Shown one piece after another: positions 3,602 to 31,195 of a stretch of DNA of 34,364 nt. This stretch comes from Alphaproteobacteria bacterium (GTDB lineage: Bacteria > Pseudomonadota > Alphaproteobacteria > SMXS01). The first letter of the stretch is position 1, and the number at the start of each line of letters is the position of its first letter. The notes beneath the pieces are model-generated. The model did not search any database. It had not been told where the DNA came from and worked only from the letters and a program-made list of their open reading frames with translations. The DNA lies in NCBI GenBank assembly GCA_004356955.1, contig SMXS01000122.1, positions 1 to 34,364 on the forward strand, in the 5' to 3' direction. A program made the translations under genes and the position numbers.

Positions 3602-4317
3602 TCCTGTTTCCGGCGATCGATCTGAAGGACGGCCAATGTGTGCGCCTGTATCAGGGCGATATGGACAAAGCGACGGTCTTTAATGACAGCCCGGCCAATC
3701 AGGCCGCACAATTCGAAGCAAATGGGTTTGAATGGTTGCATCTGGTCGATCTCGACGGCGCTTTTGCCGGCAAGCCAGTGAATGGTGCCGCCGTCGAGGC
3801 GATTTTAGCGGCCACCGACCTGCCGACGCAATTGGGTGGCGGGATCCGCGACCTTGCGACCATCGAGATGTGGCTGAACAAGGGCATCAAGCGGGTGATC
3901 CTGGGCACAATCGCTGTTAACGACCCCCAGATTGTACGCGACGCCTGCAAGGCCTTTCCCGGTCAGGTGGCGGTCGGCATTGATGCGCGCGATGGCCTGG
4001 TGGCGGTCGAAGGGTGGGCCGAGGTGTCGTCGCTGACGGCCATCGATCTGGCGCGCGAGTTTGCAGACGCGGGTGTGGCGGCCATCATCTATACCGATAT
4101 TGAACGCGACGGCGCCATGAAAGGCGTCAATGTTGACTCGACCGCAACACTGGCCAAAGCGACGTCGATCCCGGTGATTGCCTCGGGTGGCGTGGCCTCT
4201 ATTGAAGACCTGAAAGCCCTGAAAGCCCAGGATGTTATTTTTGAAGGCGTGATTTCTGGCCGGGCGATTTACGACGGACGACTGGACCCGACAGAAGCCC
4301 TGAAGGTGCTGCGCTGA
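3598..4317 (+). CDS. hisA: Phosphoribosylformimino-5-aminoimidazole carboxamide ribotide isomerase
   Basis: [62 protein letters not shown]...QLGGGIRDL...[13 protein letters not shown] overlap with hisH. Confidence 0.97.
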
Positions 4318-5075
4318 TGCTAAAAGCACGCATTATTCCCTGTCTGGATGTCAAAGATGGCCGTGTGGTCAAAGGCGTCAACTTTGTTGACCTGCGCGAT
4401 GCGGGTGACCCGGTGGAACAGGCCAAAATTTACGACAAAGCCGGTGCGGATGAGCTGTGCTTTCTCGATATCACCGCCAGCCACGAAGATCGCGACATCA
4501 TCTTTGATGTGGTGCGCCGAACGGCAGAAGAATGCTTTATGCCCCTCACCGTTGGTGGCGGTGTGCGGACCATCGATGACGTGCGCAAATTGTTGTTGGC
4601 GGGGGCCGACAAAGTCTCGGTCATGACAACAGCGATCAACAATCCAGAATTTATTCGCCAAGCATCCCTAAAATTTGGTTCGCAATGCATCGTGGTGGCC
4701 ATTGATGCCAAGGCCACAGGTGCAGGCACCTGGGAGGTTTTTACCCATGGCGGACGCACGCCAACAGGCGTTGATGCGGTCGAACACGCGATACGGATGG
4801 AAGAGATGGGCGCAGGCGAAATATTGCTGACATCGATGGACCGCGATGGCACGGGGGACGGCTTTGACATTGAATTGACGCGGACAATCTCTGACGCCGT
4901 GCGCATTCCCGTCATTGCCTCGGGTGGTGTTGGCACCCTTGATCACATGGTCGAGGGTATTCGTGATGGTGGTGCCACCGCTGTGTTGGCAGCATCGATC
5001 TTTCACTTTGGCACCCACTCGATTTCCGAGACCAAAGATTATATGCGGGCCGCAGGCGTTGCAGTTCGTGACTAA
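4317..5075 (+). CDS. hisF: Imidazole glycerol phosphate synthase subunit HisF
   Basis: [59 protein letters not shown]...[26 protein letters not shown]. Confidence 0.98.
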
Positions 5076-5107
5076 GCGTTTAAGCTAGCGTCCCAGAGGA
5101 CATCATC

Positions 5108-5434
5108 ATGAGCCAGAACGACGACATATTAGACCAGGTCTTTCAGGTCATCCAAAGCCGCAAGAATGCCGACCCATCAAAAAGCTATGTGGCCAGTCTT
5201 TACCAAAAAGGCCGGCACAAAATAGCCGAAAAGGTCGGGGAAGAAGCCATTGAGACTGTCATTGCTGCGGTCGGCGGCGATAACAAAGAAGTTATTGCGG
5301 AATCAGCTGATCTGATCTTTCACCTGATGATCCTGCTGGCCGAGCTTGACCTGACGCTTGATGACGTGCGGGACGAATTGGCGCGCCGCGAGGGCATTTC
5401 TGGCATTGATGAAAAGAACAGCCGCAGCAAGTAG
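5108..5434 (+). CDS. hisE: Phosphoribosyl-ATP diphosphatase
   Basis: 108 aa; [60 protein letters not shown]: HisE signature; end of the his cluster. Confidence 0.95.
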
Positions 5435-5445
5435 GGAATATTTCG

Positions 5446-5859
5446 ATGCCAATGCCTGATTTCAAGACCTATGACGATAGCAATATCTTTGCCATGATTC
5501 TGCGCGGCGAAATCCCCAACAAGACGGTCTATGAAGACGACCATGCCCTGGCCTTCCACGACATCAACCCGCAGGCTCCTGTCCATGTGTTGGTGATCCC
5601 AAAGGGCAAGTACATTTCCATGGTGGATTTCACGGCCAAGGCCAGTGACGCAGAAATTGCCGGGTTTTTCCGTGCTGTCGGCAAAACAGCAGAAATTCTA
5701 GACCTGCCAGACCCCGGCTATCGCCTGTTGGTCAATCACGGACCGCACTCGCACCAGGAAGTCCCCCATCTGCACGTCCACATCTTTGGCGGCAAGCATG
5801 TTGGCCCGCTGTTGATGCGGGGCTGGGAAGGCAAGATTAAGATGCCCAATATGGATTAG
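5446..5859 (+). CDS. HIT family (HinT-like) nucleotide-binding protein
   Basis: 137 aa; NIFAMILRGEIPNKTVYEDDHALAFHDINPQAPVHVLVIPKGKY...HSHQEVPHLHVHIFGGKHVGPL: HxHxH histidine-triad motif. Confidence 0.93.
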   Translation: MPMPDFKTYDDSNIFAMILRGEIPNKTVYEDDHALAFHDINPQAPVHVLVIPKGKYISMVDFTAKASDAEIAGFFRAVGKTAEILDLPDPGYRLLVNHGPHSHQEVPHLHVHIFGGKHVGPLLMRGWEGKIKMPNMD

Positions 5860-5892
5860 GGGCGATGGACGACCAGGTTCATATAAATTCAT

Positions 5893-5998
5893 CCGTTCGT
5901 ATCGAGTGATTTGGCGCGCCAGCGACAAATTGTATCGAGACACGTGCCCTTGTCAGGTCTCTCGATACAATCGCTTTGCGATCACTCGAGACGAACGG
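5893..5998. repeat. Nested intergenic palindrome (two stacked inverted repeats) between convergent genes
   Basis: Outer arms CCGTTCGTATCGAGTGAT (5893-5910) / ATCACTCGAGACGAACGG (5981-5998), 17/18 pairing; inner arms ATTGTATCGAGA (5929-5940) / TCTCGATACAAT (5960-5971), perfect 12 bp. Confidence 0.85.
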
Positions 5999-6006
5999 GG
6001 CCCTTT

Positions 6007-6987
6007 TCAGAGCTCCTTTTCTACCAACGCCTTCAAATCCGTGACAGGTCGCGCGCCCATGTGGCTGATGATTTCGGCCGCCGCAATCGACCCCATATGG
6101 CCGCATTCGCCCAGGCTACGCCCCTGGGTCAGACCGGTAAGCACGCCAGCGGCATAAAGGTCACCGGCCCCCGTCGTGTCGACCACATGGACGTCGGGGA
6201 CCGCATCAATCAGGTGAATTTCGTCACCATCCATCAACAATGATCCTTTTTCTGACCGGGTCAGGGCGGCCATGGTGCCCGCAGCGCGGACGGCCTGCAG
6301 GGCGTCGTCGAACCCTTTGACTTCATAAAGCGAACAAATCTCGTCTTCATTGGCGAACACCAGATCAACCGTCTTGACCAACTCTTTGAACTCTTCACGG
6401 AAACGATCAACGCAAAAAGCATCAGAAAGCGTCAGCGCGACCTTGCGATTGTGTTGATGGGCCATGCGCATGGCATGACGAAAGGCTTCCTTGGCGTCCT
6501 CGGGGTCCCAAAGATAGCCCTCCAAATAGGTAAAATGCGCGCGCGAGATCAAATCTTCATCGATATCAGCAGGCGATAACAGGTTGGACGCGCCCAGATA
6601 GGTGTTCATGGTGCGTTGCGCGTCAGGGGTTACCAAAATCATGCTGCGGGCGGTCGGCAGGCCATCGGTCAGGCGTTCTGTACGATAGACCACATTGGTG
6701 GCGCGCAGGTCCTCGGCGAATATATCCCCCAGGGTGTCGTCGGCCACTTTGCCAATATAGGCCGCCTTACCCCCCAGGGCCGCAACCCCGGCAATAGTGT
6801 TGGCCGCCGATCCGCCCGAAATTTCAGTCGAGGCGGTCATCCCGGCATATAAGGCATTGGCCTGGTCCGTATCGATCAGCTGCATGGACCCCTTAACCAG
6901 GCCATGATCTTCCAGAAACTGGTCTTCTGTGTGGCTTAGCACATCAACGATGGCATTACCGATACCGACAACGTCGAGCAGGGACAT
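6007..6987 (-). CDS. PfkB-family carbohydrate/nucleoside kinase, probably adenosine kinase
   Basis: 326 aa; DVVGIGNAIVDVLSHTEDQFLEDHGLVKGSMQLID...ISGGSAANTIAGVAALGGKAAYIGKVADDTLGDIF...VDTTGAGDLYAAGVLTGL: PfkB motifs. Confidence 0.92.
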   Translation of the reverse strand: MSLLDVVGIGNAIVDVLSHTEDQFLEDHGLVKGSMQLIDTDQANALYAGMTASTEISGGSAANTIAGVAALGGKAAYIGKVADDTLGDIFAEDLRATNVVYRTERLTDGLPTARSMILVTPDAQRTMNTYLGASNLLSPADIDEDLISRAHFTYLEGYLWDPEDAKEAFRHAMRMAHQHNRKVALTLSDAFCVDRFREEFKELVKTVDLVFANEDEICSLYEVKGFDDALQAVRAAGTMAALTRSEKGSLLMDGDEIHLIDAVPDVHVVDTTGAGDLYAAGVLTGLTQGRSLGECGHMGSIAAAEIISHMGARPVTDLKALVEKEL

Positions 6988-7023
6988 AGGGGCTCCTTAA
7001 TTTTCCGCACCATACAGCATATA

Positions 7024-7038
7024 GGTGGATTATCCACC
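7024..7038. promoter_or_regulatory. 15-bp perfect palindrome in a divergent intergenic region (candidate operator)
   Basis: GGTGGAT-T-ATCCACC between the kinase (-) and the EI24-like gene (+). Confidence 0.4.
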
Positions 7039-7140
7039 GACACAGCACATTGATACCGATCATATTCTCCCTATATGAAAGAGGCTTTTTGTTATCAGGT
7101 TTCCATTGCGCCCCATCGGACAAACAGGTTCAATAGATTT

Positions 7141-7821
7141 ATGTTTTCAGCGATCTTCAAGACACTGAACCAATTTTCAGAAGCCAGTTTTTGGCGAATC
7201 CTGGTGCGCGCGATGATCATCAGCCTGATTTTGCTGGGCCTATGCATCTGGGCGGGCGTAGAGCTTGCGGGCCTTGTCCCCAAGACTGAAATCGGCTGGA
7301 TCAACTGGATTATCGAACAATTGTCGTCCTTTGGCGTGGCGTTCGCCATATTGTTCTTGTTTCCGGCGCTGGCGAGTTTGGTGATGGGCCTGTTTCTTGA
7401 CCAGATTGCCGACGCGGTGGAACAGCGGCACTATCCCAATGATCCGCCGGGCGTGCCCGTTGGTATTGCCCAAAGCATGTCCTCTGCCGGTAAACTTGCC
7501 GGCCGGATGTTGTTGTTTAACTTGATTGCCCTGCCTTTCTATATTGCTTTCCTGTTCTTCCCCCTTCTCAGCTTCGGGCTTTACTATCTGATCAATGGAT
7601 ATTTGTTGAATAAAGAATATTTCGAGATGATCGCGCTGCGCCATGGCGATGCCGACCAGCACAAGGCGTTGCGTCGCAAGCATGGTGGGCGGCTATTTGT
7701 CGGGGGGTGCCTGATTGCTTTCCTGTTCAGCATCCCGATCCTCAACCTCACAACACCTTTGTTGGCCACGGGCCTGATGGTCCATTTGTTCAAAGGATTT
7801 AAACCGGGGGCACAGACCTGA
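7141..7821 (+). CDS. EI24/CysZ-like integral membrane protein
   Basis: MFSAIFKTLNQFSEASFWRILVRAMIISLILLGLCIWAGVELAG...FLFPALASLVMGLFLDQIADAVEQRHYPNDPPG...NGYLLNKEYFEMIALRH: EI24 domain pattern. The ORF extends to 7075 but ATG 7141 fits better. Confidence 0.8.
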   Translation: MFSAIFKTLNQFSEASFWRILVRAMIISLILLGLCIWAGVELAGLVPKTEIGWINWIIEQLSSFGVAFAILFLFPALASLVMGLFLDQIADAVEQRHYPNDPPGVPVGIAQSMSSAGKLAGRMLLFNLIALPFYIAFLFFPLLSFGLYYLINGYLLNKEYFEMIALRHGDADQHKALRRKHGGRLFVGGCLIAFLFSIPILNLTTPLLATGLMVHLFKGFKPGAQT

Positions 7822-8180
7822 TGCGACCTATAATCCTGGCTATATTGCTGATCTTCACGACACCATCTTTGGCCCAGGAAGCCGACCTTTCCCTCATGGG
7901 TAAGACAGCGACTGAATTGAAGGCGACATTGGGAGATCCCAGCCTGATCTGGCCGGAACACCCTGCCTATACCTGGCAATATGCCGATGATCTGTGTGTT
8001 CTACAGCTCTATCTCTATGCGCCGACTATCGGTGGCGAGGCGGTTGTAAAATACGCCGAGGCGTCGATGCGAGGGGATGTTGAAGCGGTCATGAATCCAG
8101 ACAATGTCCCGATCTGCCTGGTGTCACGGGGGCTAATGCCCGGTCCGGCTTCTGATTCTGGCCCAGACTCTCGCCGTTAG
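7821..8180 (+). CDS. Small secreted/periplasmic hypothetical protein
   Basis: 119 aa with N-terminal signal peptide MRPIILAILLIFTTPSLAQEA; contains LKATLGDPSLIWPEHPAYTWQYADDLCVLQLYLYAP; overlaps the upstream stop by one nt (TGATG). Confidence 0.7.
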   Translation: MRPIILAILLIFTTPSLAQEADLSLMGKTATELKATLGDPSLIWPEHPAYTWQYADDLCVLQLYLYAPTIGGEAVVKYAEASMRGDVEAVMNPDNVPICLVSRGLMPGPASDSGPDSRR

Positions 8181-8219: not shown

Positions 8220-8612
8220 ATGCCCATAAAGCTGAACCACACAATTGTCCCCTGCCACGAAGAAGCCAGCCCGGACGGGGTTCCGCGCGACAAGGACGCC
8301 AATGCGAAGTTCTATGCGCGCATATTGGGGTTAAACTATGTTGGCTCAACCGGGCACTTTGTCGCCGTCGAGATCAATGACAGCCTGACGTTTGATTTCG
8401 ACAATGCGAAAATGTTCGCCCCCCACCATTATGCCTTCAAAGTGTCCGAGGCAGAATTCGACGAAATCTTTAGCCGCATCAAAGAAGAAGACCTGGCCTA
8501 TGGCTCAGAACCCTTCACGCCGGACAATATGGAAATCAATCATAGAAACGGCGGGCGGGGCCTCTATTTTGCCGACCCAAACAGCCATTTATTGGAAATT
8601 CTAACGGCCTGA
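8220..8612 (+). CDS. VOC-superfamily (glyoxalase/bleomycin resistance-like) protein
   Basis: 130 aa; LNHTIVPCHE...KFYARILGLNYVG...HHYAFKVSEAEFDEIFSRIKEE...GGRGLYFADPNSHLLEILTA: VOC beta-alpha-beta motifs; AGGAAGGAGG SD upstream. Confidence 0.9.
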   Translation: MPIKLNHTIVPCHEEASPDGVPRDKDANAKFYARILGLNYVGSTGHFVAVEINDSLTFDFDNAKMFAPHHYAFKVSEAEFDEIFSRIKEEDLAYGSEPFTPDNMEINHRNGGRGLYFADPNSHLLEILTA

Positions 8613-9260
8613 CCAAATCTCTGGGTCCTCTGCGGTCTTCTTTTTGAAGTTGCACAAATCATAGATCATGCATTTGTGGCACTCTGGCTTGCGGGCTTTG
8701 CAGATATAGCGTCCGTGCAAAATCAGCCAGTGATGGGCGTGTTGCAGAAACTCTTCAGGGACAATTTTTTCGAGCCGCTTCATCATCGCGTCGGCGGTTT
8801 TGGCATGGGAAAGCCCGGTGCGGTTCGATAGCCGGAATATATGGGTGTCCACTGCAATTCTGGGATGCCCAAAGGCAATATTCATCACTACAGCGGCTGT
8901 TTTCTGGCCAACACCAGGTAGTTTGAACAGCTCGTCGGCGTCTTCGGGCACTTCGCTGCCATATTCATCGATCAGAATTTGGCTCAGCCGATAAACATTC
9001 TTGGCCTTGGTGTTGAACAGGCCGATGGTCTTTACATAATCACGGATCGTATCTTCACCCAGCGCGACCATCTTTTCTGGCGTATCGGCAACCGCAAACA
9101 ACGGCCCGGTGGCCTTGTTGACCCCGACATCGGTGGCCTGGGCCGAAAGCGCAACTGCCACCAACAGCGTATAAGGGTTCTTGTAGTTCAGCTCGCCGAC
9201 CGGTTCGGGGTCACCGTCACGCAGTCGAGAAAACATGTCATGGATATCAGCTTTTTTCAT
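8601..9260 (-). CDS. nth: Endonuclease III
   Basis: 219 aa; ELNYKNPYTLLVAVALSAQATDVGVNKATGPLF...LPGVGQKTAAVVMNIAFGHPRIAVDTHIFRLSNRTGL and 4Fe-4S motif CKARKPECHKCMIYDLC (C-X6-C-X2-C-X5-C). Confidence 0.97.
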   Translation of the reverse strand: MKKADIHDMFSRLRDGDPEPVGELNYKNPYTLLVAVALSAQATDVGVNKATGPLFAVADTPEKMVALGEDTIRDYVKTIGLFNTKAKNVYRLSQILIDEYGSEVPEDADELFKLPGVGQKTAAVVMNIAFGHPRIAVDTHIFRLSNRTGLSHAKTADAMMKRLEKIVPEEFLQHAHHWLILHGRYICKARKPECHKCMIYDLCNFKKKTAEDPEIWSGR

Positions 9261-9272
9261 CGATGAATGCGG

Positions 9273-10094
9273 CTAAAAGCCCAGCACATCGGTCATGGTG
9301 TAATAGCCGGGGGCTTTGCCTTGGGTCCACAAGGCGGCATGGACGGCACCACGGGCAAAGATGGTGCGGTCACCGGCCCTGTGGGTCAGCTCAATGCGTT
9401 CATCATCGGCGGCAAAGATGACGGTGTGGTCGCCGACGACATTCCCGCCGCGCAGACTGGCAAAACCAATATTACCGACCTTGCGGGCACCGGTGACGCC
9501 ATCGCGAGCCCGATCAGCAACGTTATCCAGGGAAACACCACGGCCTTCTGCAGCGGCATGGCCCAGGGCCAGGGCGGTCCCGGATGGTGCGTCGACTTTG
9601 TGGCGGTGGTGGATCTCGAGGATTTCGATATCAAATTGTGGGTCCAGGACCTGGGCGACTTGGCGGGTTAGGGCCGCCAACAAATTGACACCGATGCTGA
9701 AATTGGGGGCCTGCACAACCACTGTTCGGCGGGCTGCGTCCGTGACCACTCTCATTTGGTCTTCATCAAGGCCTGTCGTGCCAACAATGTGTGCGGTTTT
9801 GGTCTCGGCCGCCAGGGCTGCCAGCAAGGCAGTTGTGTCGGGGACCGTGAAGTCGATGATGACGTCACTGGTCTCAAACAAAGATTGGCGATCCGCCGAA
9901 GCGACCAGGTTCAAGGGCTCTTCCAACCCGGCAAGTAGGCCCAGATCGATACCGATCGCGTGATGGCCATCGATCTCTGTGCCACCAGCCAGGGTACAGC
10001 CGTCAGTCTGCGTGACCTGACGCAACAACGTCCGGCCCATCCGGCCACCGCAGCCAACAATGCCAATCGATAGGTCTGTCACCACTTGCTCCAT
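9273..10094 (-). CDS. dapB: 4-hydroxy-tetrahydrodipicolinate reductase
   Basis: 273 aa; IGIVGCGGRMGRTLLRQV...DVIIDFTVPDTTALL...VGTTGLDEDQMR...APNFSIGVNLLAAL...EILEIHHRHKVDAPSGTALALG. Confidence 0.97.
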   Translation of the reverse strand: MEQVVTDLSIGIVGCGGRMGRTLLRQVTQTDGCTLAGGTEIDGHHAIGIDLGLLAGLEEPLNLVASADRQSLFETSDVIIDFTVPDTTALLAALAAETKTAHIVGTTGLDEDQMRVVTDAARRTVVVQAPNFSIGVNLLAALTRQVAQVLDPQFDIEILEIHHRHKVDAPSGTALALGHAAAEGRGVSLDNVADRARDGVTGARKVGNIGFASLRGGNVVGDHTVIFAADDERIELTHRAGDRTIFARGAVHAALWTQGKAPGYYTMTDVLGF

Positions 10095-10174
10095 TGTCTT
10101 CTAAACAACTGAAATCTAACACAGGCTTGGGGCTGGAGCGACTCCATAGAGACGCTTTACCAAGGGTCCTGGCC

Positions 10175-11320
10175 TTAGTCTGTGGTTTCGTTCCAACGTT
10201 CGTTGATGCGATCGCTGAAATTGTCTGCCTTGGGGCTGCTGCCCTTGTCAGCATCGACAAATTGTTGCAACAGTTTTTTCTGTTCCTTGGTCAGGTCGAC
10301 CGGTGTTTCGACCGAAATCAACACAAACATATCACCGCGGCCTGATCGCTGCAGGCGGGGCATGCCCTTGCCCCGCAAGCGGAAGTGACGGCCGGACTGG
10401 GTGCCTGCGGGGATCGTGATACGTGCTTTGGTGCCCTCAACAGTCAGGACTTCGATAGGCCCGCCAAGGGCAGCGGTCGCCATGGCCAAGGGTACATTGC
10501 AATAGACGTCGTTACCGTCGCGTTCGAACAGTTCATGATCGCGGACAGATATAAACATATATAGATCACCTGCCGGTCCACCGCGCTCGCCGTCTTCGCC
10601 TTCGCCGGACAGGCGGATGCGGGTGCCTTCTTCAACGCCAGCGGGGATGGAAACGGACAAGGTTTTGTCTTTTTGCACGCGGCCTGCTCCGTGACAGGTG
10701 GTGCAAGGGTCAGAGATGGTTTGGCCAGCGCCATGACAGGCGGGGCAGGCCCGTTCGACGGTAAAGAAGCCCTGCTGTTGGCGGACTTTGCCCATGCCCT
10801 GACAGGTCACACAGGTGGTGGGCGAGCTGCCAGGGGTCGCACCAGACCCGCCACAGGGGGCGCATTTCACGGCTGTATTAATTTTGATCTCGGCTTTTTT
10901 GCCCGAGAAGGCGTCTTCCAGCGATACGTCGTAATTATATCGCAGGTCAGAGCCCCTTTGGGGCCCACCGGCGCCACCACGACCGCGGCCGCCACCGCGA
11001 CGATCGCCAAATAGATCTTCGAAGATGTCGCCGAAGGATCCACCAAAGTCAAAGCCGCCACCGGCTGCGCCGGGACCACCCTGGCCCATGGAACCGTCAA
11101 AGGCCGCATGGCCAAAGCGGTCATAGGCCGCCCGTTTTTGGTCGTCCTTCAGGGCGTCATAGGCTTCGTTGATTTCTTTGAACTTTACCTCAGCCGCCGC
11201 ATCGTCCGGATTGCGGTCGGGATGATACTGCATCGCCAGCTTGCGATACGCCTTCTTGATGTCGGGGCCAGGTGCGTCCTTGGATACCCCGAGGAGTTCA
11301 TAAAAGTCAGTTTTGGCCAT
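10175..11320 (-). CDS. dnaJ: Chaperone protein DnaJ
   Basis: [40 protein letters not shown]; Gly/Phe-rich linker; four CxxCxGxG-type zinc repeats. ATG at 11320 is the likely start within the longer ORF. Confidence 0.97.
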
Positions 11321-22881: not shown

Positions 22882-25197
22882 ATGAGTAATTGGGTAAGTA
22901 ATTATGTTCATAGCCTTTTTCGGTTTCGTTGGCTTGTTTTGTTGGGGGTCATTGCAGTAACGGCGCTGGCGCTGTATGGCGCCACCTACCTGACCTTCAA
23001 GGGAGACTACCGCATCTTTTTTGGGGATGACAATCCTCAACTACAGGCGCATGACGCCTTGGAGCGGAAATATACCAAAGCCGATAACATCCTGTTTGTC
23101 ATCCAGCCCCATGAGGGCACGGTATTCAACCGCGATGTGCTGGTTGCCGTTGCATGGCTGTCCGAGGAATCCTGGTATATGCCCCTTGCTCTGCGGGTGG
23201 ATTCACTTTCAACCTATCAGCACACTCGGGCCGAGGGAGACGATCTGACAGTCGAGGCCATTGCTCAATATCCGCAGGAAATGAGCGATGAGGACATTGC
23301 CTATTTGCGCGACGTCGCCCTGAACGAACCCTTCCTGGCGGGTAAAGCAATTGCTTTGGATGAGCGCACAACGGCGGTTGCGGTCACCTTCCAACTACCC
23401 GATACCACGGGCACGATCGCCAATGAAATAGCGGTCTCGGCGCGGGAAATTCAGGCCAGGGCACGCGAGAAGTACCCAGATCTTCGTATTGAGTTGACCG
23501 GCACGATCATGCTCAATAACTCGTTTTCAGAAGTCGCGTTCAACGATTTTACGACCCTGTTCCCTTTGATGCTGTTGCTGCTGGTTGTCACCATCTTATG
23601 GTTTCTGCGATCGGCCTGGGCAGCGCTGGCCACCCTCATTGTGGTGTTGCTGTCGGCCGCCGTCGGTTATGGCGGGGCGGGCTGGATGGGGCTGTTTATC
23701 AGCGCGCCGACCTCAAATTGTTTTGTTATTATCCTGACGGTGGCAGTGGCGGATTCGATCCATCTGTTGATCACCCTGTTCAAGCAAATGCGCCTGGGCA
23801 TGTCAAAAAGGGATGCCATGGCGGAAAGCATGCGGTTGAACATGCAGCCGGTGTTCCTCACCAGCCTGACGACGGCCATCGGGTTCCTTAGCCTGAATTT
23901 TGCCGACGCGCCGCCCATTCAGCATTTGGGCACAATTTCGGCCATTGGGACGATAGCAGCCTATTTCTATTCGGTCGTCCTTTTGCCAATCCTGATAGAC
24001 TTTCTGCCGGTCAAGGCACACGACACAGCGCACAAAGACGAAGCTGTTCTGACCCGTATCGTTGAATTTGTTATCGGCCATAGCCGAAAAATCATCGTCG
24101 GGACCATTGGCTTGTTGGCGGTTTCGATCGCCTTTTTGCCACAGATCATTGTGAACGATAAATTTGTCGAGTTTTTCTCGACCAATATGGACTTCCGCAA
24201 CGCCTCAGACTTTGCTACCGAAAACCTGACCGGCATTTACATAGTCGAGTTTTCTCTGGGCTCTGGTGAAAGCGGCGGCATTGCAGAGCCCAGCTATCTG
24301 CAGAATCTGCAAGATTTTGAAGACTGGATCATGGCCTACCCCACCTATGGGCCTACGGGCGGCGGCGTCCAGCACGTGAACGACTTCAACTTCGTCATGA
24401 AAAAGCTGAACAAAAGCATGAATGGCGACGATCCCAGTTTCTACAGATTGCCTGAACAGCGCGACCTGGCGGCGCAATATCTGTTGATGTATGAGATGTC
24501 TCTGCCAGAAGGCCAGGATTTGAATAATCAGATCAATGTCGACAAGTCTTCAACCCGGGTATCGGTTACCTTGGGTGATGTTGCCAGTTCCTATATGCGC
24601 AAATTCTCTGCCGATGGTGAACAATGGCTGATCGACAACAAGCCGGCGGCCATGGTGTCCAAGGGCAGTGGCGTGCCCATCATGTTTTCCTTCCTGACAG
24701 AGCGCAACGTATTGGACATGATCAAGGGAACTGGCATTGCGTTTATTTTGATCTCGATCGTCTTGATGCTGGCGCTCAAGAGCTTTCGCATAGGGTTGAT
24801 CAGCCTGTTGCCGAATTTTCTGCCCCCCATCGTGGTGTTCGGATTTTGGTCGATGCTTTATGGTGAAATTGGCCTCTATGCGGCTTTTGTCACGGCGACG
24901 GCTCTGGGCCTGATCGTCGACTTCACAGTGCATTTCCTCAGCAAGTATTTGCGCGCCCGACGAGAGAAGGACCTGGGTGCTGAAGAGGGTATTCGATACG
25001 CTATGGCCAATGTTGGCAGTGCCCTTTGGGTCACAGCAGCGGTCCTGATAACCGGCTTCATGGCCTTGACCCTGTCTGATTTCCTCATTAACTCCTTAAT
25101 GGGATTATTGACGGCGATGATTATAGCTGTGGCACTTGTATTTGATTTTCTATTTTTACCGGCACTGTTATTGGTGTTTGATAAGAAAAAAAGGTGA
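22882..25197 (+). CDS. RND superfamily (MMPL-type, COG1033-like) exporter
   Basis: 771 aa; two hydrophobic halves, each a large extracytoplasmic loop followed by a multi-TM block (e.g. TTLFPLMLLLLVVTILWFLRSAWAALATLIVVLLSAAVGYGGAGW...NCFVIILTVAVADSIHLLITLFKQMRLG). Confidence 0.9.
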   Translation: MSNWVSNYVHSLFRFRWLVLLGVIAVTALALYGATYLTFKGDYRIFFGDDNPQLQAHDALERKYTKADNILFVIQPHEGTVFNRDVLVAVAWLSEESWYMPLALRVDSLSTYQHTRAEGDDLTVEAIAQYPQEMSDEDIAYLRDVALNEPFLAGKAIALDERTTAVAVTFQLPDTTGTIANEIAVSAREIQARAREKYPDLRIELTGTIMLNNSFSEVAFNDFTTLFPLMLLLLVVTILWFLRSAWAALATLIVVLLSAAVGYGGAGWMGLFISAPTSNCFVIILTVAVADSIHLLITLFKQMRLGMSKRDAMAESMRLNMQPVFLTSLTTAIGFLSLNFADAPPIQHLGTISAIGTIAAYFYSVVLLPILIDFLPVKAHDTAHKDEAVLTRIVEFVIGHSRKIIVGTIGLLAVSIAFLPQIIVNDKFVEFFSTNMDFRNASDFATENLTGIYIVEFSLGSGESGGIAEPSYLQNLQDFEDWIMAYPTYGPTGGGVQHVNDFNFVMKKLNKSMNGDDPSFYRLPEQRDLAAQYLLMYEMSLPEGQDLNNQINVDKSSTRVSVTLGDVASSYMRKFSADGEQWLIDNKPAAMVSKGSGVPIMFSFLTERNVLDMIKGTGIAFILISIVLMLALKSFRIGLISLLPNFLPPIVVFGFWSMLYGEIGLYAAFVTATALGLIVDFTVHFLSKYLRARREKDLGAEEGIRYAMANVGSALWVTAAVLITGFMALTLSDFLINSLMGLLTAMIIAVALVFDFLFLPALLLVFDKKKR

Positions 25198-25205
25198 GTA
25201 GTAAC

Positions 25206-26102
25206 ATGAAATTGGCAAGATTTTGGACCTTCACCCTTGTTGCAACGTTCGGCCTGATAGCCGGACTAAATAGCGCGAATGCGGCTGGCGTGCCCGTCGA
25301 AGAAGGGGTGCGTATCGCCACAGAAGTGGCCAACAGATGCAAAGAAACTCTCGACGTAGCGACACTGGCGGATGCTGTTTCCCGAGGGACGGCGATCGCC
25401 CTGGCGACCGAGGAATATGACCAGGGATTTGGTGACGTAGAATCAGAAATGCATATGGTCCTCTATAACCGCCACGGCGAAAGCGCCGAGCGCGACTTGC
25501 GCCAGCACACGCTCGAAATGGTAGGCTTGGATGTTGGTGACAAATCCATGATCATCTTTGATCGGCCGCGCGATGTCGCGGGCATGGCCATGCTGACCTA
25601 TGCCAAAATACTGGAGGCCGATGATCAGTGGATGTACATGCCGGCGATCAAGCGCGTAAAGCGCATCTCATCCAAAAACAAATCCGGCCCTTTTATGGGA
25701 AGTGAATTCGCATTTGAAGATTTCTCAGGCCAGGAATTTGGTAAATATTCCTATCGCTACCTTCGCGACGAACCATGCCCCGATGACGAAAGCCTGACCT
25801 GCCATGTGGTGGAACGCTATCCGCTTTATGAGAATTCTGGCTACGTGAAACAGATTGGTTGGTCTGACGACATGCACCGTGGCCGCCGGACCGAGTTTTA
25901 CAATCGCCGCTGCGACTTGCTGAAGGTCATGGTCGCCAGCGACTTCCGCCAGTATCTGGACCATTACTGGCGCGCCCACAAATTGCGTATGGAAAACCAG
26001 CTGACGGGTAAGGCAACAGACCTGACGTGGGACGACTTCACCTTCAATGTTGGCCTGACAGATGCGGACTTCACCCAGAACAGCCTGAAGCGCGCACGCT
26101 AG
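25206..26102 (+). CDS. LolA-like outer membrane lipoprotein-sorting family protein (PF17131-like)
   Basis: Signal peptide MKLARFWTFTLVATFGLIAGLNSANAA; MIIFDRPRDVAGMAMLTYAKILEADDQWMYMPAIKRVKRISSKNKSGPFMGSEFAFEDFSGQEFGKYSYRYL. Confidence 0.88.
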   Translation: MKLARFWTFTLVATFGLIAGLNSANAAGVPVEEGVRIATEVANRCKETLDVATLADAVSRGTAIALATEEYDQGFGDVESEMHMVLYNRHGESAERDLRQHTLEMVGLDVGDKSMIIFDRPRDVAGMAMLTYAKILEADDQWMYMPAIKRVKRISSKNKSGPFMGSEFAFEDFSGQEFGKYSYRYLRDEPCPDDESLTCHVVERYPLYENSGYVKQIGWSDDMHRGRRTEFYNRRCDLLKVMVASDFRQYLDHYWRAHKLRMENQLTGKATDLTWDDFTFNVGLTDADFTQNSLKRAR

Positions 26103-26139
26103 AACGATCAGGGGCTGAAAGGGAGGCGTCGCCACGGCG

Positions 26140-27351
26140 ATGAGAAGGCTTTGCACGGCATTGTTGGTCGCGACTTTTGGTGTGCTGGGCACGCTGTCAA
26201 GCGCAAGCGCCGAGGCTGATTTTCAGCTTGAGGGTAATATCGAGCTTGAGGGTCGCTTTTTTACCAATGGCATCGACCAGGATGGCCGGCATGATCCCAA
26301 TGTGTCGGTCTCATTCGACCCGATCCTGATCATGTTATTGGACCGTCGCAAACACACATTCACATTTAATCCCTATTTCCGGTGGGACAGCAATGATGGC
26401 AAGCGCACTCATTTTGACATTCGCCAGGCCAGTTGGATTGGTGCATTTGGTAATTGGGAATTCCATGTCGGGATCGACAAGGTGTTCTGGGGGGTTACAG
26501 AGGCAGCCCATCTGGTCGATATTATCAACCAGGATGACGCGGTCGAAGACATCGACGGCGAAGACAAATTGGGGCAACCACTGGTTTCGGCGTCTTATTG
26601 GAGCCAATATGGCACGCTGACGGCCTACATCATGCCCTACTTTAGAGAGCGCACCTTCGCCGGTGTCGATGGTCGGCCCACGGCGCCCCTACCGGTTGAT
26701 ACGGATAATCCTATTTTTGCGTCCGGAACCAATAATTGGCACCCGGACTGGGCTGTACGGTATCAACATTCGTTCAGTGTTTTTGACGTTGCAGCGTCCT
26801 ATTTCAGCGGTTTCAGTCGTACGCCAGAACTTGTGCTTGGATTAGACGATACCGGGCAGCCGGTGGTTCGGCCTTTTTACGACACCATCAAACAAGTGGG
26901 CCTGGAAATGCAGGCCACGGTCGGTGCCTGGTTGTTCAAGTTTGAAGGCATAAACGTCAATCCTACGAACGACCTGACCTATCAGTCTTTTGCCGCAGGG
27001 TTCGAATATACGTTCTACCAGGCCTTTGGGACCTACGGCGACATCGGCATTATATCGGAATATCTATGGGACAGCCGCGGACAGAGCGGACCATCTTTTA
27101 CTGAAAGCGACTTGTTTTTTGGGATTCGGTGGGAAGGCAATGATGTTGCGACAACCAGAATTCTGGCTGGCATGATCTTTGACCTGGACACAAGTGCCAA
27201 GACATTCTTCATCGAGGCCAGCCGTCGTATCGGTGATCGATGGCGCATTACGCTCGATGGCCGGTTCTTCCTTTCAGTACCCATAGGTGACCCAGCCTAT
27301 GTTTTCCGGCGAGATGACTTCATCCAACTGCGACTGGCGCGGTTCTTTTAA
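26140..27351 (+). CDS. Outer-membrane beta-barrel-type hypothetical protein, third gene of the RND/LolA-like module
   Basis: 403 aa; signal peptide MRRLCTALLVATFGVLGTLSSASAEA; amphipathic strand pattern throughout; C-terminus ...YVFRRDDFIQLRLARFF ends in Phe as in many outer membrane proteins. Confidence 0.72.
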   Translation: MRRLCTALLVATFGVLGTLSSASAEADFQLEGNIELEGRFFTNGIDQDGRHDPNVSVSFDPILIMLLDRRKHTFTFNPYFRWDSNDGKRTHFDIRQASWIGAFGNWEFHVGIDKVFWGVTEAAHLVDIINQDDAVEDIDGEDKLGQPLVSASYWSQYGTLTAYIMPYFRERTFAGVDGRPTAPLPVDTDNPIFASGTNNWHPDWAVRYQHSFSVFDVAASYFSGFSRTPELVLGLDDTGQPVVRPFYDTIKQVGLEMQATVGAWLFKFEGINVNPTNDLTYQSFAAGFEYTFYQAFGTYGDIGIISEYLWDSRGQSGPSFTESDLFFGIRWEGNDVATTRILAGMIFDLDTSAKTFFIEASRRIGDRWRITLDGRFFLSVPIGDPAYVFRRDDFIQLRLARFF

Positions 27352-27452: not shown

Positions 27453-28964
27453 ATGGTCGCCCATATTCGCACCGTTTCCTTCTTTGGGGTTGAGGCCCGA
27501 CCCGTTGATGTCCAGGTTCAGGTGATGTCCGGATTGCCCGCCTTCACCATCGTTGGCCTGCCAGACAAGGCGGTGGCCGAATCAAAAGAACGCGTGCGCG
27601 GGGCCCTCAGTGCGATTGGCCTGGCGCTGCCGGCCCGGCGCATCACAGTTAATCTGGCGCCCGCAGACATGCCCAAGGAAGGCAGCCACTTTGACCTGCC
27701 CATTGCGCTGGGGATGCTGTCCGCCATGGGTGTGTTGCCAGCGGACGAAATGCAGCAATTTTGTGTCTTGGGCGAGTTGGGCCTCGATGGGTCTATCATG
27801 GCCGTCAATGGCGTGTTGCCCGCCGCGATCGCAGCCCATGCAGAGGGCCTGGATCTGATATGCCCGGCGGCCTGCGGTGGTGAGGCGGCCTGGGCCGGTG
27901 GTGGCGAAGTGCTGGCACCCGATCATCTGATCGCCCTCGTCAACCACATCAAAGGCACCCAGGTATTGTCACCGCCCAAACCCGAAATTGCCGTAGAGCC
28001 GGCAAGCCTGGTCGACATGCGCGATATCAAGGGCCAGGAAAGCGCCAAAAGAGCGCTCGAGATTACGGCGGCTGGTGGCCACAATCTGTTGCTGGTGGGC
28101 CCACCGGGTGCGGGTAAAAGCTTGCTGGCCGCGCGATTGCCCGGTCTGTTGCCACCGATGGAGGCGCAAGAGGCCCTCGAGGTGTCGATGATTGCCTCGG
28201 TTGCAGGTACCTTGCGGGACGGGCGCTTGATCCAGGCGCGTCCCTTTAGGGCACCGCATCATTCGGCCTCGATGCCCGCACTTGTCGGCGGGGGCCATAA
28301 GGCCAAGCCAGGCGAAGTATCGCTGGCGCATAATGGCGTGTTGTTTTTGGACGAGCGGCCCGAATTTTCTCGCCAGGCTCTCGATTCGTTGCGTCAGCCG
28401 CTCGAAAGTGGCGAGGCTGTCATTGCCCGGGCCAATGCCCATGTGACCTACCCCGCAGATGTGCAGTTGATCGCGGCCATGAATCCCTGCCGTTGTGGCT
28501 ATCTGGGTGACCACGAACTGGCTTGCACCCGGGCCCCAAAATGCGCCATTGATTATCAATCCAAAATTTCCGGCCCCCTTTATGACCGGATCGATCTGCA
28601 TGTAGAGGTCCCACCAGTGAGCGCGTCAGAGCTAAGCCAGGTCAATGATTCTGAACCAACAGCCGTGGTCGTGGCCCGAGTGGCGCGTGCCCGTCAGATC
28701 CAGCTAGACAGATTTGCCGAACTGGGCTCCGCAGTGCGAATCAACGCGCGTGCAGACGGCCAGCTTTTAGCGACGATTGCTGTGCCGGTTGGTGATGCCC
28801 AGACGCTGCTAGAGGACGCGACGGACCGCATGCGCCTGAGTGCGCGCGGTTATCACCGTGTATTGCGGGTTGCCCGTACCATTGCCGACCTGGATGGTCG
28901 CACAGATATTAATCGCACCCATATTGCCGAGGCATTGTCCTACCGACGCATGCAGATCCGGTGA
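27453..28964 (+). CDS. YifB/ComM family Mg chelatase-like AAA ATPase
   Basis: 503 aa; MVAHIRTVSFFGVEARPVDVQVQVMSGLPAFTIVGLPDKAVAESKERVRGALSAIGLALPARRITVNLAPADMPKEGSHFDLPIALG; Walker A GPPGAGKS; FRAPHHSASMPALVGGG; NPCRCGYLGD. Confidence 0.96.
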   Translation: MVAHIRTVSFFGVEARPVDVQVQVMSGLPAFTIVGLPDKAVAESKERVRGALSAIGLALPARRITVNLAPADMPKEGSHFDLPIALGMLSAMGVLPADEMQQFCVLGELGLDGSIMAVNGVLPAAIAAHAEGLDLICPAACGGEAAWAGGGEVLAPDHLIALVNHIKGTQVLSPPKPEIAVEPASLVDMRDIKGQESAKRALEITAAGGHNLLLVGPPGAGKSLLAARLPGLLPPMEAQEALEVSMIASVAGTLRDGRLIQARPFRAPHHSASMPALVGGGHKAKPGEVSLAHNGVLFLDERPEFSRQALDSLRQPLESGEAVIARANAHVTYPADVQLIAAMNPCRCGYLGDHELACTRAPKCAIDYQSKISGPLYDRIDLHVEVPPVSASELSQVNDSEPTAVVVARVARARQIQLDRFAELGSAVRINARADGQLLATIAVPVGDAQTLLEDATDRMRLSARGYHRVLRVARTIADLDGRTDINRTHIAEALSYRRMQIR

Positions 28965-30319
28965 GCAACCCGGCCCTCGATACGGTCATCCCGCCGCGCT
29001 GGGCAGCATTTTTTGGACCCGGCGCGGTCTATTTTGAACGCAATGTCTTCCTGTTTTTGTTTATGGGGTTTTCGGCCGGCGTCCCTCTGGCGCTGTCTTT
29101 TGGGACGCTTAGCTATTGGCTGATCGAGTCTGGCACGTCCAAAGGCGAGATCGGTCTGTTCACGCTGCTGACGATTCCCTATGCGTTTAAATATATCTGG
29201 GCCCCTTTTATGGACGGGCTGCGGTTTCCTATCCTTTGCAGGATATTTGGACGCCGACGGGGCTGGATGCTGGCGACGCAATTTGCCCTGATTGGGGCGA
29301 TTGCACTGGCCGGATTGTCGGATCCCGTGCCTGGGCATTTGACCTATGCGGCGGTGGCGGCCTTGGCTATTGCCTTCTTTTCGGCCTCGCAGGACATTGT
29401 CATCGATGCCTATCGAGTGGAAATTTTGACCGACGACCAACAGGGGGCCGGTGCGGGGGCATATCAGATCGGCTATCGGCTGGCGATGTTGGCATCAGGC
29501 GCTGGTTCGTTGATTTTGGCCGATCAAGTTGGGTGGCCGACCACCTATTTCACCATGTCGTTGCTGATGCTTGTTGGCGTTGTGACAGTATTGTTTAGCC
29601 CGGAACCGCGATCGCGCGCGCCTGCGGCCACAGTCCCGACTACGGATGATAAGTCAGGGGCTATGTCGGCCAATTTACAGCGTCTCTACACCATGGTGAC
29701 GGGGCCATTTGTCGAATTTTTCCGCAAGCCTGGCTGGCTTGCGATTCTGGCTTTTGTTTTGTTTTACAAATTTGGGGACACGCTGGCTTCGATGATGACC
29801 GGTCCTTTTTATATGGAAATTGGGTTCTCCAAGACCGAGATAGGCTTTGTCGGCAAAGCGGTTGGCATTGCTGCGACCATCGTTGGCGCCATCATCGGTG
29901 GTACCTTGGTCTATTCCCGGGGTATTGTTGCCAGCCTGTGGATTTGCGGCGTTTTTCAACTGGTATCGAACTTCATGTTTGTGCTGTTGGCCATGGCAGG
30001 CCACGATTTGTGGGTTCTGGGCCTGACAGTCGGCATCGAAAACCTGGCTGGCGGCATGGGTGGTGCAGCCTTCATCGCCTATATGTCCAGCCTGTGTAAT
30101 ATTTCTTACACGGCGACCCAGTATGCGCTGCTGAGTTCCCTGGCCAATATTGGGCGCACGGTTTTTGCCGCGCCGTCGGGCTATTTGGCCGAAGCTGTAT
30201 CGTGGGAGGTGTTCTTCTTGCTTACGGTGATTGCCGCTCTGCCGGGGCTGGCATTGCTGTGGTATCTGGGGCAGCGATATAGCGTCGACGAAAGCCCGAC
30301 CCCTGCCCAAGATGATTGA
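28961..30319 (+). CDS. AmpG-like muropeptide MFS transporter
   Basis: FLFMGFSAGVPLALSFGTLSYWLIESGTSKGEIGLFTLLTIPYAFKYIWAPFMDGLRFP...GRRRGWMLATQFALIGAIALAGLSDP; overlaps the comM-like stop (GTGA). Confidence 0.88.
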   Translation: MSNPALDTVIPPRWAAFFGPGAVYFERNVFLFLFMGFSAGVPLALSFGTLSYWLIESGTSKGEIGLFTLLTIPYAFKYIWAPFMDGLRFPILCRIFGRRRGWMLATQFALIGAIALAGLSDPVPGHLTYAAVAALAIAFFSASQDIVIDAYRVEILTDDQQGAGAGAYQIGYRLAMLASGAGSLILADQVGWPTTYFTMSLLMLVGVVTVLFSPEPRSRAPAATVPTTDDKSGAMSANLQRLYTMVTGPFVEFFRKPGWLAILAFVLFYKFGDTLASMMTGPFYMEIGFSKTEIGFVGKAVGIAATIVGAIIGGTLVYSRGIVASLWICGVFQLVSNFMFVLLAMAGHDLWVLGLTVGIENLAGGMGGAAFIAYMSSLCNISYTATQYALLSSLANIGRTVFAAPSGYLAEAVSWEVFFLLTVIAALPGLALLWYLGQRYSVDESPTPAQDD

Positions 30320-30412
30320 CAAGCTTGCCTGGTTTTGGCATGCGGTGTCGCAAGTACCTGTGGTACTATGCCGCAGCCCTGTTGGCCGCGCGTAATATAA
30401 AGAGGTAATCCC

Positions 30413-31195
30413 ATTTCTGTAGAAGCCAAGAAAAAGGCCCGGTTGGAAGTTCGACTGGCCAAGGACGACTCTGAAATCGAGGCCGCCCAGCGGCTCCGCT
30501 ATCAAGTGTTTTTCGAGGAAATGGGTGCCCAGACAACGCCAGAACTGGCGGAATTGGGTCTCGATATCGATGAATATGACGCCATTTGCGACCATCTATT
30601 GGTGATCGACGGCGCGCTGCCTGCAGAAGAAGCTGTGGTCGGCACCTATCGCATATTGCGCGAAGAAGTTGCCAACCAAAACAACGGCTTCTATTCAGCA
30701 GCAGAATATGATCTCAGCGCGCTGTTGGCGGGGCGCGACGAGGCAACCATTCGGGACCAGGGTCAATATATCGAAGTTGGTCGATCCTGTGTGCGCGCCG
30801 ATTACCGATCGAATGCGACTATTCAGTATTTATGGCGCGGCTTGGCGGTCTATGTGCGCGAACACAATGTGTCCTGCATGTTTGGATGTGCCAGTCTTGA
30901 AGGGACAGACCCACAAGAGCACGCCTTGGCTTTGTCCTATCTTCATCACAACTTCCAGGCGCCCGACGATATGCAGGTCAAAGCCATCCCGTCCAGGCAC
31001 GTCGCCATGAATATGATGCCCGCAGATGAGATTAGTGATCGCGCGGCGATACGCGTGTTGCCGCCACTGATCAAAGGCTATTTGCGGGTTGGATGCTATA
31101 TCGGCGACGGCGCTGTGGTGGATGAAGAATTCGGCACCACCGATGTCTTCATCATTGCGCCCACCGACCGCATTCCAGATAAATACTTTAGCTAA
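30413..31195 (+). CDS. OlsB-like GNAT acyltransferase (ornithine-acyl-ACP N-acyltransferase family); non-ATG start at ATT 30413 or TTG 30443
   Basis: LEVRLAKDDSEIEAAQRLRYQVFFEEMGAQTTPE...EYDAICDHLLVID...VVGTYRILRE...YIEVGRSCVRADYRSNATIQYLWRGLAVYV...GCASLEG...PPLIKGYLRVGCYIGDGAVVDEEFGTTDVFII. Confidence 0.85.
   Translation: MSVEAKKKARLEVRLAKDDSEIEAAQRLRYQVFFEEMGAQTTPELAELGLDIDEYDAICDHLLVIDGALPAEEAVVGTYRILREEVANQNNGFYSAAEYDLSALLAGRDEATIRDQGQYIEVGRSCVRADYRSNATIQYLWRGLAVYVREHNVSCMFGCASLEGTDPQEHALALSYLHHNFQAPDDMQVKAIPSRHVAMNMMPADEISDRAAIRVLPPLIKGYLRVGCYIGDGAVVDEEFGTTDVFIIAPTDRIPDKYFS

Follow-up and report, generated by a model that had tools for sequence, protein, structure and literature searches.

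The closest published counterpart of the system described here is AmeABCD of Castellaniella defragrans, which comprises a DUF1302 outer-membrane protein, a DUF1329 protein of the LolA superfamily, a YCF48-like protein and an HAE3-type resistance-nodulation-division (RND) transporter, and which is required for monoterpene tolerance (PMC6394551). We analyzed a 34,364-nucleotide stretch of an alphaproteobacterial genome (GCA_004356955.1, contig SMXS01000122.1, positions 1 to 34,364; hereafter, the window), in which three consecutive genes on the forward strand at 22882-27351 encode an RND transporter, a secreted LolA-like protein of the PF17131 type and a barrel protein ending in Phe, as a first-pass annotation made from the sequence had described. 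This module shares the plan of AmeABCD: an HAE3-type RND, a LolA-superfamily periplasmic protein and an outer-membrane protein in one cassette, with the window barrel remotely related to DUF1302. It differs in having PF17131 in place of DUF1329, a barrel outside Pfam DUF1302, another gene order and no monoterpene island. A search of the window's genome for an AmeC-type gene (YCF48/PSII_BNR, PF14870) gave no match.

Other described systems resemble the module in part. In BstABC of Methylococcus, the MMPL-family protein BstA acts together with sterol-binding partners that are periplasmic or associated with the outer membrane (PMC10942540). The window module has the same set of an MMPL pump, a periplasmic protein and an outer-membrane-associated protein (lipid-binding in BstABC), but BstB is a PF12974 binding protein, and both BstB and BstC fall outside the LolA_like and DUF1302-type families. 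A recent proposal assigns the export of a non-polar ligand to a cluster of ABC, LolA-like and Omp85 genes in Borrelia (PMC13078400). The mycobacterial MmpL exporters (MmpL7/PpsE, MmpL8/Pks2) have in common with the module the MMPL fold and, in three lineages of module relatives, linkage to a polyketide synthase (PKS). We know of no LolA_like partner or window-type barrel for these exporters.

Operons of MMPL, LolA_like and DUF1302 genes in Bacteroidota (Prevotella nigrescens, locus L207; Porphyromonas gingivalis PG1175-81) have the three genes directly adjacent and in the order MMPL-LolA_like-barrel, but they carry two ABC transporter genes upstream, give a true DUF1302 match and are strongly iron-regulated (PMC10434189). 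Few records came up when plasmids were searched for DUF1302 relatives, but one of them, from Prevotella, contains the full MMPL-LolA-DUF1302 operon. The 13- to 223-fold increase of the Porphyromonas and Prevotella MMPL-LolA operons in low iron (PMC10434189), along with the export of mycobactin by mycobacterial MmpL4/5 reported in PMC12803245, would fit transport of a siderophore or an iron-related amphiphile. For the window module we consider this very unlikely, given that the Prevotella operon is set apart by its two ABC transporter genes and proper DUF1302 barrel and that no iron or siderophore-synthesis gene adjoins the window copy in the Pfam scans of the window.

The first-pass annotation regarded the system as under-described. 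It is indeed little studied, but the same architecture has been published as AmeABCD (PMC6394551), and DUF1302, DUF1329 and RND proteins of P. putida have been linked to Tween 20 use (PMC10866462). What is new here is the barrel family with its confident model, the co-inheritance statistics, a fusion paralogue and the PKS-linked relatives, though an earlier paper in subscription journals is possible.

We propose, with a probability of roughly 0.55, that the module exports a lipid-like molecule across the cell envelope and that protons power this transport. The RND protein would take a hydrophobic molecule out of the inner membrane, driven by protons, and load it onto the LolA-like protein, which would carry it across the periplasm in a greasy cavity. 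Unloading would take place at the barrel, which would pass the cargo on to the outer membrane or across it. We infer the direction, the cargo, the ligand of the LolA cavity and the physical contacts between the parts from the observations that follow.

The grouping of the three genes is not due to chance, since LolA and the barrel co-occur across 385 alphaproteobacterial species genomes and the adjacency recurs in 39 loci. Among these 385 genomes, the barrel was found in 58, LolA in 59 and both in 55 (Fisher p = 6e-58, a value that ignores phylogeny and shared ancestry). Among 41 relatives, LolA and the barrel were both present in the same 11 genomes and both missing from the other 30. For 39 of the 76 alphaproteobacterial LolA loci, an RND gene lies directly upstream and a barrel gene directly downstream, all on one strand; this count is a lower bound, because two candidates per genome were scored in the RND search and many contigs are broken. 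The co-conservation on which the first-pass annotation depended is therefore present, and we treat the three genes as one conserved module. When a genome collection was scanned, relatives of the window barrel numbered at least 573, the best 80 of which come from Alpha- and Gammaproteobacteria and from metagenome-assembled genomes labelled as other phyla. At the 77 loci of the collection with a called barrel, the gene just before the barrel is LolA in 52, and an RND gene stands two places before it in 50.

Two variants of the arrangement were also noted. One operon (L156, G036:C22, 229-6427) contains a TetR gene, two tandem RND genes whose products are 46% and 49% identical to the window RND, and LolA, possibly a two-pump version. 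On a plasmid of Pseudoalteromonas rhizosphaerae (L206, 3586-11695), MMPL and LolA_like genes stand directly before gamma-mobile-trio recombinase genes, so the module moves, at least in part, with mobile DNA.

The RND gene (22882-25197, forward strand) begins with ATG in the list of open reading frames (ORFs) and encodes 771 aa. By Pfam the protein belongs to MMPL (PF03176; E = 5.3e-26, 91.8 bits against a cut-off of 20.5), while its best NCBIfam match, HAE3 (TIGR00921), scores 159.5 bits, under the cut-off of 351.9 for membership. A hydropathy plot gave 11 strong hydrophobic segments in two clusters, as expected for an RND transporter with two periplasmic loops; 12 segments are expected, and one was under the cut-off used. 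The putative proton-relay residues are Asp291 in transmembrane segment (TM) 4 (codon at 23752-23754, forward strand), which is Asp in 25 of 26 aligned sequences and Asn in one, and Asp680 in TM10 (codon at 24919-24921, forward strand), which is kept in all 26; His294 and His684 are each invariant in the same alignment (26/26). We take these aspartates and the nearby His positions to be the proton-coupling positions of MmpL-type transporters. As judged from the alignment, the RND protein keeps both the TM4 and the TM10 aspartates expected for proton coupling. No gene for an HlyD-type adaptor or for TolC, the partners of a tripartite HAE1 pump, was detected among the Pfam-scanned window ORFs, in keeping with the first-pass annotation. 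The same genome encodes a second RND, 47% identical to that of the window (L155, contig C55:8000-18834, at 8571-10835); its partners are not visible because the gene runs off the contig end.

Overlapping the RND gene by 4 bases, the gene for the LolA-like protein (25194-26102, forward strand, GTG start) encodes 302 aa with a probable Sec-type signal peptide, assigned by eye (25194-25283, forward strand; a hydrophobic segment followed by ANA-A, with cleavage near Ala30). The protein is a member of LolA_like (PF17131; E = 2.8e-50, 171 bits against a cut-off of 30), one of only two PF17131 genes found in the genome. The closest PDB entry, which was deposited as a putative outer membrane lipoprotein-sorting protein, is 3bk5 (E = 8.8e-68); 4z48 and 9tp6 are more distant relatives. 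Canonical LolA (PF03548) gave no Pfam match in this protein and is encoded separately in the same genome, on contig C92.

The fold is the feature that the window carrier shares with LolA/LolB sorting, and the RND protein shows weak similarity to the HpnN model of NCBIfam (105.9 bits, below the cut-off of 751.9). A role in the Lol lipoprotein-sorting pathway or in an HpnN hopanoid pathway might be considered on these grounds, but seems to us exceedingly unlikely. The window module has an RND in place of LolCDE and a barrel in place of LolB, no LolCDE (ABC) or LolB gene adjoins it, and the separate canonical LolA argues against lipoprotein sorting. Hopanoid cargo is disfavoured because a squalene-hopene cyclase (PF13249) was not found in the genome, which is 91% complete. 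Thus, of the trafficking of lipid or lipoprotein that the first-pass annotation had suggested, the lipid part remains the best reading and the lipoprotein part is not supported; nor is the hopanoid cargo that its comparison with HpnN-type transporters would imply.

The third gene (26140-27351, forward strand, ATG start) begins 37 bases past the LolA-like gene and encodes 403 aa with the C-terminus RLARFF. A probable Sec-type signal peptide was again recognized by eye (26140-26211, forward strand; a hydrophobic segment, then ASA). The protein has no Pfam or NCBIfam match, including to DUF1302 (PF06980). AlphaFold of the single sequence was uninformative (pLDDT 32) and was replaced by an AlphaFold2 model built with a 72-sequence alignment (71 relatives), which gave a beta-barrel with pLDDT 93.6 and pTM 0.87. 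In this model an N-terminal signal helix precedes about 18 long strands, and the chain ends in Phe. Among solved structures it comes closest to chitoporin, general porins, OccK-type channels and AlgE, at TM-scores of 0.4-0.6. The model indicates an outer-membrane barrel, as the first-pass annotation had supposed; judged by these scores, it is of ordinary size and has no close solved relative. A viral structure library returned only generic porin-like matches.

Conservation in the barrel is concentrated in residues 114-145 (KVFWGVTEAAHLVDIINQDD...KLG; 26479-26574, forward strand), a long loop after strand 5, at the probable L3 position. Mean conservation is 0.85 in this segment, with at least 90% at 18 of its 32 positions, compared with 0.5-0.7 in the strands. 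Counting strands in the model with short periplasmic turns, the segment is probably the third outer loop. In porins, this loop is the constriction loop folded into the pore. Profile-profile alignment of the window barrel by hhalign matched a DUF1302 protein encoded on contig C167 of the same genome over 365 columns (probability 93%, E = 3.6e-7) and a Prevotella DUF1302 protein (probability 95%, E = 3.1e-8). We conclude from these alignments that the window barrel is a remote relative of DUF1302, while not a member by the Pfam test.

The C167 protein belongs to a second system of the same kind. At 3621-8172 of that contig (G000, L003), a 1070-aa ORF encodes a full MMPL transporter joined to a PF17131 LolA domain through a hydrophobic, signal-peptide-like stretch, which would place the LolA part in the periplasm. 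The ORF is followed by a gene for a 449-aa barrel-like protein above the DUF1302 cut-off. This system has the same three functions in the same order as the window module, but pump and carrier are one protein, the RND is 24% identical to the window RND and the barrel passes the DUF1302 cut-off. Because MMPL and LolA are naturally fused in it, the paralogue strongly supports a cargo shared by pump and carrier.

Leads on the cargo came from relatives of the module. PKS genes lie beside such relatives in three lineages of Alphaproteobacteria, one of them genus g3, which belongs to the same family as the window's genome (type I PKS genes at L159 5538-13388, L160 350-8233, L161 3626-11509, L203 11307-19193 and L208 1-7586). 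In genus g3 the module comes after a highly reducing PKS of 2617 aa with KS, AT, DH, ER, KR, ACP and C-terminal Condensation domains, and at L159 the RND gene starts where the PKS gene ends. The terminal Condensation domain was found in both PKSs scanned with Pfam (L159 and L203). Among the best full-length NCBIfam likenesses of the g3 PKS is Pks2 of mycobacterial sulfolipid synthesis (1227 bits, under the cut-off of 2400). An ORF between LolA and the barrel in this genus resembles a phosphopantetheinyl transferase by eye and has no Pfam match. In a genome of another family (G099), the order is LolA-barrel-RND and then a PKS that has the same domains and is 38% identical to that of g3. A plasmid of Sulfitobacter dubius carries a RefSeq-annotated type I PKS, an MMPL transporter and a LolA-type protein in a row, then galE, then a barrel; this barrel, two genes past the LolA-type gene, belongs to the window barrel family (hhalign E = 3.5e-46).

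These arrangements recall mycobacteria, where PKS-made lipids are exported by MmpL transporters and an interaction of MmpL7 with the PKS PpsE has been reported (PMC1238737). The PKS operons that contain module relatives argue for the outward direction, and together with the MMPL-LolA fusion they favour a lipid-like cargo. The best reading of the LolA-like protein, working with the RND, is the hydrophobic-substrate shuttle of the first-pass annotation. In this genome, the likeliest cargo is a lipid of acyl or polyketide type whose biosynthetic genes are not linked to the module. Tentatively, and with less confidence than in export as such, we suggest that these modules may be widespread among Gram-negative bacteria as the equivalent of the PKS-MmpL route of mycobacteria, in which a polyketide- or fatty-acid-derived lipid would pass from the RND to a soluble LolA-fold shuttle and on to a dedicated barrel with the conserved FWGVTExxHLVDIINQ loop.

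Several observations weigh against export of such a lipid. The PKS-linked RNDs share just 31-36% identity with the window RND, and their cargo may differ. The window copy has no PKS or lipid-synthesis gene as a specific neighbour, and the cargo and direction proposed for this genome would follow from relatives and analogy. In addition, fadE, a gene of fatty-acid degradation, is found upstream in divergent orientation at five Alteromonadales loci, an arrangement that would suit uptake and efflux alike. In the case of uptake, the barrel would admit external lipids or fatty-acid esters, the LolA-like protein would carry them inward and the RND would hand them over to the inner membrane. Two points count against uptake: most RND transporters whose direction is known pump outward, and the PKS operons imply export in relatives. 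The fadE link keeps it alive, as does the finding that DUF1302, DUF1329, RND and periplasmic proteins of P. putida are needed for growth on Tween 20 (PMC10866462), a phenotype that could reflect detergent or fatty-acid stress. On balance, we regard uptake as unlikely.

Regulatory genes bear on another possibility, inducible efflux of toxic hydrophobics such as solvents, terpenes, detergents or drugs, as has been proposed for AmeABCD; the pump would clear the membrane, and the compound would pass out by way of the LolA-like protein and the barrel. TetR-type regulators are encoded directly upstream of RND in at least 29 of 80 loci and, among 40 alphaproteobacterial loci, beside the module in about half, and deletion of AmeABCD lowers monoterpene tolerance and lets in more Nile Red (PMC6394551). 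While these TetR genes and AmeABCD keep efflux under consideration, lipid genes too are under TetR regulators, module relatives lie within PKS operons, and no TetR gene adjoins the window copy, which stands between the housekeeping genes gshB and comM. Efflux of toxic compounds is thus, in our estimate, a rather unlikely function, and we continue to favour export of a lipid-like molecule.

Further genes were seen beside relatives of the module. A PEMT-family gene is found between LolA and the barrel in seven loci, mostly of Thiotrichaceae; in three of this family (L105 3967-5040, L130 7488-7940 and L142 7474-7926), the PEMT-family methyltransferase gene, accompanied in some by a small barrel-like ORF, separates LolA from the large barrel. 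At L204 (G295:C73, 1-14909), RND, LolA and barrel genes lie amid ORFs that by eye resemble a peptidase-containing ABC transporter, a leader-peptide-type protein and a flavin halogenase, possibly a natural-product cluster. A lone second RND of the same family (L157, G002:C3, 4139-10296) lies near ORFs that by eye are thiolase-, enoyl-CoA hydratase- and thioesterase-like, a fatty-acid link. A literature search for LolA in aryl polyene clusters gave nothing usable.

The window copy itself is flanked on the 5´ side by rsmI, yraN and gshB and on the 3´ side, at 27453-31195, by comM, an AmpG-type transporter gene and olsB (Pfam and NCBIfam assignments); TetR, PKS, fadE and PEMT genes are absent from its neighbours. 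Ornithine lipid was considered as cargo, with olsB 3 kb downstream, and was rejected because olsB keeps near comM, at 5-8 kb, in genomes where the module is absent or elsewhere (G037, G038, G018). The comM-olsB neighbourhood is thus kept independently of the module in the other genomes compared.

The barrel family has no Pfam entry despite its at least 573 relatives in one scan of species genomes. If the proposed function is correct, LolA_like, DUF1302 and HAE3/MMPL, large families named by domain only, would gain a common job. If the modules are also the equivalent of the PKS-MmpL route, lipids would reach the cell surface by a path that needs no continuous tunnel and no ATPase. The PKS-linked copies, one of them in a named Sulfitobacter, offer a tractable route to the identity of the cargo. 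They also suggest that polyketide lipids may adorn the surface of Gram-negative bacteria, as they do that of mycobacteria.

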